Below, piece after piece: positions 28,147 through 55,523 of a stretch of 64,000 bases of DNA; within the stretch, counting starts at the first letter, position 1; every line of letters begins with the position of its first letter. The stretch covers positions 1 through 64,000 of the forward strand of contig JAQTYU010000017.1 of assembly GCA_028688145.1 (NCBI GenBank). Reading direction: 5' to 3'. The position numbers were made by a program, and so were the translations under genes. Source of the DNA: Thiotrichaceae bacterium (GTDB lineage Bacteria > Pseudomonadota > Gammaproteobacteria > Beggiatoales > Beggiatoaceae). The notes beneath the pieces are model-generated. The model was not told the DNA's origin, made no database searches, and saw nothing but the letters and a program-made list of their open reading frames with translations.

Positions 28147-28432
28147 TTAGGCTGGTTTTAATAGTTGTAACTCAACCGCTTTTCTAATATCCGCATCAGT
28201 TAAACGGTATTGGCTCATATTCGTAGGAGTTACGCGGTTGAAATCATAATTCATTAATTTACAAGGAGTTAGTATTGTGCACTGCACAATAATATTTCCA
28301 GTAAAATCAACCAGTTACCGATTCAACTGCGTAACTCCTAATCCGTCAAAGTTTTACATAACTGGCGAATCACCTCTTCAGACAGCAACGCAGTTAGTAA
28401 GTTTTCACGTAACACTGGGAATGTGCCGATAG
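28147..28432 (-). pseudogene. Unidentified gene remnant split by a MITE
   Basis: On the minus strand, codons from about 28432 to 28342 read AIGTFPVLRENLLTALLSEE and on through VIRQLCKTLT. The 118-bp MITE interrupts, and the frame then continues from 28218 as MSQYRLTDADIRKAVELQLL-KPA to TAA at 28147. The two pieces look like the C-terminal end of one host gene. Its 5' part is cut by the IS701-like fragment at 28.43 kb. I do not recognise the family. Confidence 0.4.
28224..28341. repeat. 118-bp MITE, type A, copy 2
   Basis: Almost identical to the copy at 152-269 and of exactly the same length, with the same internal TATTGTGCACTGCACAATA palindrome. Few differences suggest recent movement. Inserted in a gene remnant. 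Confidence 0.92.
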
Positions 28433-28710
28433 CACGGTTAGCTATCAGTGATAAGGGCAGTGTTGTTCATCTCATGGGCTATGGATTTGTTAAAGTGTTC
28501 AGAACAATCGCTACAAACGGTGATGCTGAACATTGGGCGATTGAGAATTACCATCGCGGTATTAAACAGTTCTGTGGTGTAGATAAATGTCAGGCTCGCT
28601 CTGCAACCGCCCAGCGTAATCACATTGCAATGGCTCTGCGTGCTTTCCTGCGCTTAGAGACTATCTTGTCTCTCCAAGATACAACCTAATTTCAACTGCG
28701 TAATTCCTAA
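28433..28710 (+). pseudogene. IS701-like transposase C-terminal fragment with right terminus
   Basis: The frame to TAA at 28689 encodes ISDKGSVVHLMGYGFVKVFR followed by TIATNGDAEHW, then AIENYHRGIKQFCGVDKCQA and QRNHIAMALRAFLRLE. These are C-terminal motifs of the IS701/DDE endonuclease family (the glutamate of DDE lies in the WAIENYHRG helix). The join EHW-AIENY suggests an internal deletion of a few tens of residues. Just after the stop, TTTCAACTGCGTAATTCCTAA is the right terminus and matches the MITE ends, making this the likely source family of the MITEs. Confidence 0.7.
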
Positions 28711-46080: not shown

Positions 46081-46204
46081 TAGGAGTTACGCAGTTAAAT
46101 TTATAAGCAGTTCACAAGGTGTATGGCGGCTATGCCTTATGCACCCTACGCTTGATAAATCTCTTTGCATTAACACGTTATTAATTCAACTGCGTAACTC
46201 TTAA
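46081..46204. repeat. 124-bp MITE, type B, copy 2
   Basis: Termini TAGGAGTTACGCAGTTAAA and TTCAACTGCGTAACTCTTAA; interior with AAGGTGTATGGCGGCTATGC. Same organisation as 2331-2462 but inverted in part. Lies just upstream of the yebC start and may affect its promoter. Confidence 0.85.
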
Positions 46205-46704: not shown

Positions 46705-46760
46705 GTAAGGCGTAGCCGCGATACACCTTTGACCGCTAAATTCAACTGCGTAACTCCTAA
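46705..46760. repeat. Right end of a type B MITE
   Basis: TGTAAGGCGTAGCCGCGATA and the terminus TTCAACTGCGTAACTCCTAA. The left end is missing, replaced by the IS5 fragment. Confidence 0.7.
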
Positions 46761-55405: not shown

Positions 55406-55523
55406 TAGGAGTTAGGCAGTTGAAACACTAATCCTTTTATTTAAAATGAGTTAGTATTGTGCATTGTACAATCATATTTCCATAAAAATAAAATAGTTAC
55501 AGATTAAACTGCGTAACTACTAA
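55406..55523. repeat. 118-bp MITE, type A, copy 3 (diverged)
   Basis: Left terminus TAGGAGTTAGGCAGTTGAA, right TAAACTGCGTAACTACTAA. The internal palindrome reads TATTGTGCATTGTACAAT; changes relative to copy 1 keep most pairing (one G-T pair). Length is identical to the other two copies. Confidence 0.85.

Follow-up and report, generated by a model that had tools for sequence, protein, structure and literature searches.

MITEs are abundant in Candidatus Thiomargarita nelsonii; some have a 19-bp inverted repeat and a 10-bp duplication, others have direct repeats of TATAG, and the authors could identify no parent for them in ISfinder (PMC4853749). Other non-autonomous bacterial elements, such as MITEAba12 and the Correia elements, are described as IS-derived or hairpin-forming (PMC6382973, PMC10969869, PMC4853749). 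Within the IS701 elements, ISAba11 has a 'characteristic 5-bp direct repeat' (PMC7885321), and an HHEK signature of the ISAba11 group is named in the title of Rieck et al. 2012 (cited in PMC7326120). As read from an Acinetobacter plasmid, ISAba11 is 1,101 bp long, with tips TAGGACTTACGCA and a 5-bp duplication (CATAT in L250). Classical members of the IS701 family generate a 4-bp YTAR target duplication, and the parents of MITEAba12 and the Correia elements are not known to be related to the IS considered below. Literature searches on the tip sequence described here, and on IS701 with YTAR, returned nothing relevant.

The window (the whole 64,000-nucleotide stretch of DNA analysed here) is contig C30 of G000, a 3.63-Mb draft genome of 31 contigs that is 99.9% complete. 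Its dispersed short repeats are very probably MITEs of an ISAba11-like, IS701-type DDE IS, fresh copies of which are missing from the assembly and whose transposase would move the MITEs in trans. The MITE/IS pair is a well-resolved, ordinary kind of mobile-element system. It ties an abundant MITE population of the Beggiatoaceae to a parental IS; the earlier Thiomargarita MITEs, which come from the same bacterial family as G000 but have other duplications and repeats than the 5-bp type seen here, had no assigned parent. The features of the window are:

152-268, unstranded: MITE of family A, 117 bp; target duplication ACCTA/ACCTA
2331-2461, unstranded: MITE of family B, 131 bp, with a GTAGGGTGTATAAGGCGTAGCC hairpin inside; target duplication AGGAT/AGGAT
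28224-28340, unstranded: MITE of family A, 117 bp; target duplication ATTCG/ATCCG (1 mismatch)
28410-28709, plus strand: IS701/ISAba11-like IS relic, comprising the 3' part of the transposase gene and the right terminal repeat
28693-28709, plus strand: right terminal inverted repeat of the relic (CAACTGCGTAATTCCTA)
46081-46203, unstranded: MITE of family B, 123 bp; target duplication ATGTT/AGGTT (1 mismatch)
46705-46759, unstranded: family B-like half MITE that has only the right end; its left boundary is approximate
55406-55522, unstranded: MITE of family A, 117 bp; target duplication ATCTT/AACTT (1 mismatch)

The 21-mer TTTCAACTGCGTAATTCCTAA at 28690-28710 is the relic's right terminal repeat, and it recurs 11 times in the window at up to 3 mismatches (0 expected). 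The preliminary description had placed this tip at 269, 2462, 28341, 46204, 46760 and 55523, and it is present at all six; the right tip at 55523 lies just beyond the 3-mismatch cut-off and was recovered with a shorter core. The tip had also been said to follow directly after the transposase stop codon. A TAA does precede it in the relic, but in a shifted frame; in the IS family the transposase frame enters the right tip and stops within it (...SerThrAla-TAA = TCAACTGCGTAA). The relic is a three-times-deleted copy of an IS701-type transposase, as its left part is missing and, compared with better relics, it has lost two internal segments of about 60 bp each. Its 88-aa frame matches the last quarter of the NCBIfam profile IS701_2 (NF049921).

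Each of the five complete MITEs in the window carries the tip at both ends, inverted, and is flanked by a 5-bp target duplication that is perfect or has 1 mismatch. As previously stated, they lack coding capacity; they are short, have terminal inverted repeats and a duplication, and exist in many copies, as MITEs do. Four are intergenic. The fifth (28224-28340) does lie inside a broken gene, interrupting an ORF remnant that reads through once the MITE and one target duplication are removed. The two copies first reported as near-identical (152-268 and 28224-28340) agree at 115 of 117 positions, their length being 117 bp rather than 118. In family B and others, a GTAGGGTG...CACCCTAC hairpin lies between the same tips. 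Hairpins of the GTAGGGTGTATAAGGCGTAGCC... type are found within family B MITEs at 2364-2380 and 46133-46149 of the window and also at L003, L007, L014 and L076, and MITEs of another genus (G035) contain a variant; it looks as though the tips had enclosed a second dispersed repeat.

Across G000, 134 tips were found at up to 2 mismatches, and a reversed-pattern control gave 0. Paired elements were counted in the stretches around tip matches, and the loci taken contain 50 of them. Family A accounts for 24, which are 113-117 bp long, and family B with its relatives for 12, which are 121-131 bp long; 3 measure about 185 bp, 6 measure 53-92 bp, and the other 5 are paired IS relics that span 363-892 bp. 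Target duplication was scored in seven genomes of the family, on 94 paired elements bounded by TAGGAG...CTCCTA. Identical 5-bp flanks were present in 41 of the 94, against 0.9 expected from shuffled flanks; 4-bp flanks were identical in 1 of 94, lengths of 3, 4, 7 and 8 bp stayed at chance level, and 6-bp flanks were identical in 5 cases. At L016 (TTCTGT), L135 (CCCACT) and L212 (TTTAAT) the flanking repeat is 6 bp rather than 5 bp. A TA dinucleotide duplication of the IS630/mariner-like kind, suggested by the TA that flanks the tips, was rejected because this TA is part of the element and it is the adjoining 5 bp that are duplicated. Within G000, a perfect 5-bp duplication accompanies 22 of the 39 MITEs longer than 100 bp and none of the 5 paired IS relics, and identical MITE copies occupy separate sites, each with its own perfect duplication. 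Three elements of 53 bp, which amount to about two terminal repeats (L144 269-321, L177 247-299 and L029 1502-1554), show no perfect 5-bp duplication (0 of 3).

A transposase search of the G000 assembly returned 24 fragments, all truncated or frameshifted, and among them no intact transposase and no score above the NF049921 cut-off. Two near-complete relics, L047 (892 bp) and L048 (861 bp), retain tips at both ends, with 17 bp common to the two IS ends and GCGCAAAAGT next, inside the left end of L047. The right end of the IS matches the MITEs for two bases more (19 bp); 17 bp match at both ends. An intact IS is present in a Thiomargarita cave MAG (G016). It is 1,043 bp long, has perfect tips and a 5-bp duplication (ACCTA on the transposase strand, TAGGT on the other), and encodes a transposase of 331 aa that scores 386 bits against NF049921 (cut-off 250). 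The preliminary description had proposed comparing IS ends with MITE ends over 15 bp or more; 17 bp agree on both sides, at the contig ends of G000, in L047 and L048 and in the G016 IS, with an equal 5-bp duplication. Tips and duplication in common suggest that the MITEs are, as first proposed, non-autonomous derivatives of this IS family. Seven contigs of G016 (C7, C56, C76, C83, C84, C98 and C133) stop within or just past a half family A MITE; these stops are repeat-induced assembly breaks.

The parent had been called IS701-like, and the G016 IS does pass the IS701 model; the assignment can be narrowed to an ISAba11-like branch with a 5-bp duplication. ISAba11 and the G016 IS both score above the NF049921 cut-off (394 and 386 bits), are alike in size (about 1.05-1.1 kb) and have comparable tips (TAGGACTTACGCA in ISAba11, TAGGAGTTACGCA in the present family) and the 5-bp duplication in common, and the terminal repeat TAGGAC/GTTACGCA of the ISAba11 group is found in the IS here, as is that group's 5-bp duplication. 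The 4-bp duplication of classical IS701 elements is not the rule here (5 bp in 41 of 94, 4 bp in 1 of 94). However, protein identity is 34%, and, unlike in ISAba11, the transposase frame ends inside the right tip. With the HHEK spacing taken from the ISAba11 protein (HSSHWKIE..K), the signature is absent from G016 (SEKVWTIE..K) and from L047/L048 (ATAEKTWAIE..K). Since the ends, duplication and NF049921 match agree, yet identity is only 34% and HHEK in that spacing is absent, the parent is, on sequence comparison, an ISAba11-related branch of IS701. Relatives with 54-60% protein identity to the G016 transposase occur in Gloeocapsa PCC 7428, Chromatium okenii and Methanothrix. These are uncharacterised elements of other phyla or families; those of Chromatium and Gloeocapsa have tips TAGGAGTTACGCAGTTG or CAGGAGTTACGCAGTTG, and 5-bp duplications flank the Gloeocapsa relatives and one Methanothrix copy. 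Within the family of G000, the nameable relatives are Thiomargarita and Beggiatoa MAGs, and the branch is common to Gloeocapsa, Chromatium, Methanothrix and other Beggiatoaceae. Other IS701_2-type elements of the family (L086, L087, L088 and L089) have tips CTGATGTTACGCA and CTCACGTTACGC and flanking repeats of 6-7 bp; thus, duplication length is variable within the NCBIfam model.

The contig ends of G000 hold further copies of the IS. Contigs C8, C19, C20 and C21 stop 126-127 bp into an identical, undecayed right end that codes ...LETYSYTTGYSWFEAKMQIIRDAIRHYLVSPRYNLTSTA-stop and whose stop codon lies within the tip; C4, C5, C10 and C14 stop 126-127 bp into an identical left end that codes MNPKRCDEYDYINFLVAAQKSYSCLEAS. 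The transposase frame is open on both sides, giving the first 28 and the last 39 residues of the protein. The 5-mers next to these ends pair one-to-one (C4-C8 TGAAT, C5-C19 AAGCA, C10-C20 CATCC and C14-C21 TATCT); as a rough estimate that takes base use as even, the chance of a full one-to-one pairing is ~24/1024^4, or about 2e-11. Because the eight ends are identical and undecayed and their duplications pair one-to-one, at least four recent IS insertions exist in G000, with interiors absent from the assembly, and the matching duplications order the contigs as C4-C8, C5-C19, C10-C20 and C14-C21, which can be used to order the draft. Divergence between the fresh ends and those relics that align along most of the end is about 2 to 16%. 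The simplest reading of the four gaps is that they hold near-identical IS copies whose length exceeds the assembly overlap and whose interior was collapsed in assembly. Since the interiors lie outside the assembled contigs, we infer rather than read that the four copies are intact internally; an internal deletion could be present. None of the viral contigs scanned carries the fresh right end.

G000 holds three layers. One consists of old, decayed IS copies, 28410-28709 among them; the next, of some 45 short non-autonomous elements with paired tips, together with solo ends; and the third, of four or more fresh IS copies. For movement of these elements, a DDE transposase of the ISAba11-like branch would recognise the 17-19-bp tips TAGGAGTTACGCAGTTG(AA), bind them and cut. 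The DNA between two inverted tips would then be moved and joined to a target staggered by 5 bp, so that 5 bp are duplicated. The transposase may act in trans on the MITEs in the same way.

That the MITEs are instead fossils, with the parental IS extinct in G000 and every copy old, would accord with the state of the assembled transposase fragments, 24 of 24 of which are truncated or frameshifted and none of which passes the family cut-off, and with the lack of perfect duplications in the 5 IS relics. The eight contig ends, in frame, identical and with one-to-one duplications, make this reading very unlikely, as do identical MITE copies with perfect duplications; these copies and the four IS insertions with identical ends also uphold the first suggestion of recent activity. 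Thus, the assembly accounts at least in part for the seeming lack of an intact transposase in G000. An active mobile element can look extinct in a draft, and its missing insertions can be recovered from matching target duplications where contigs end. It is less credible still that the MITEs are moved by some unrelated transposase that has the same tips, with the IS701-like gene nearby by coincidence. Where intact interiors are missing from the G000 assembly, cargo of another kind is formally conceivable, but NF049921-type proteins lie between the same or very similar tips in the five paired relics, the G016 IS, Gloeocapsa, Chromatium, Methanothrix and Acinetobacter, and the eight contig ends code both termini of such a protein; this alternative is largely refuted.

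The family A body, 116-117 bp, can be aligned at 73-78% identity in five genomes (G000, G015, G016, G040 and G041) of four genera, G040 and G041 being of the same genus; in these two, most copies have TAGGACTTACGCAGTTG tips, with both ends altered together. In a draw of 369 genomes from the class, the family gave body matches, among them fragments from one more genus (G014), and a match in another family (G157) has mainly the tips in common. Origin of the bodies by internal deletion of the IS was rejected, as they show no match of at least 26 bp to the IS or its relics and nothing beyond the tips is alike. The body might be a long-lived non-autonomous lineage, held at a fixed length in at least four genera by an interior (the blocks GTTAgTATT and TAAAATCAA, of which the second resembles an IHF core) needed for ISAba11-like transposition or for a host function, but this is doubtful. 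Somewhat less probable is a palindromic element used by the host (e.g., as a binding or transcript-processing site), under selection and merely spread by transposition. Equal length and an alignable body in four genera speak for such use, together with the conserved inner blocks GTTAgTATT and TAAAATCAA and a strong hairpin (z about -4 to -8); however, the terminal repeats themselves supply part of the hairpin score, the inner conservation is clustered only weakly beyond chance (shuffle p about 0.04), and the copies are mostly intergenic, at unrelated sites.
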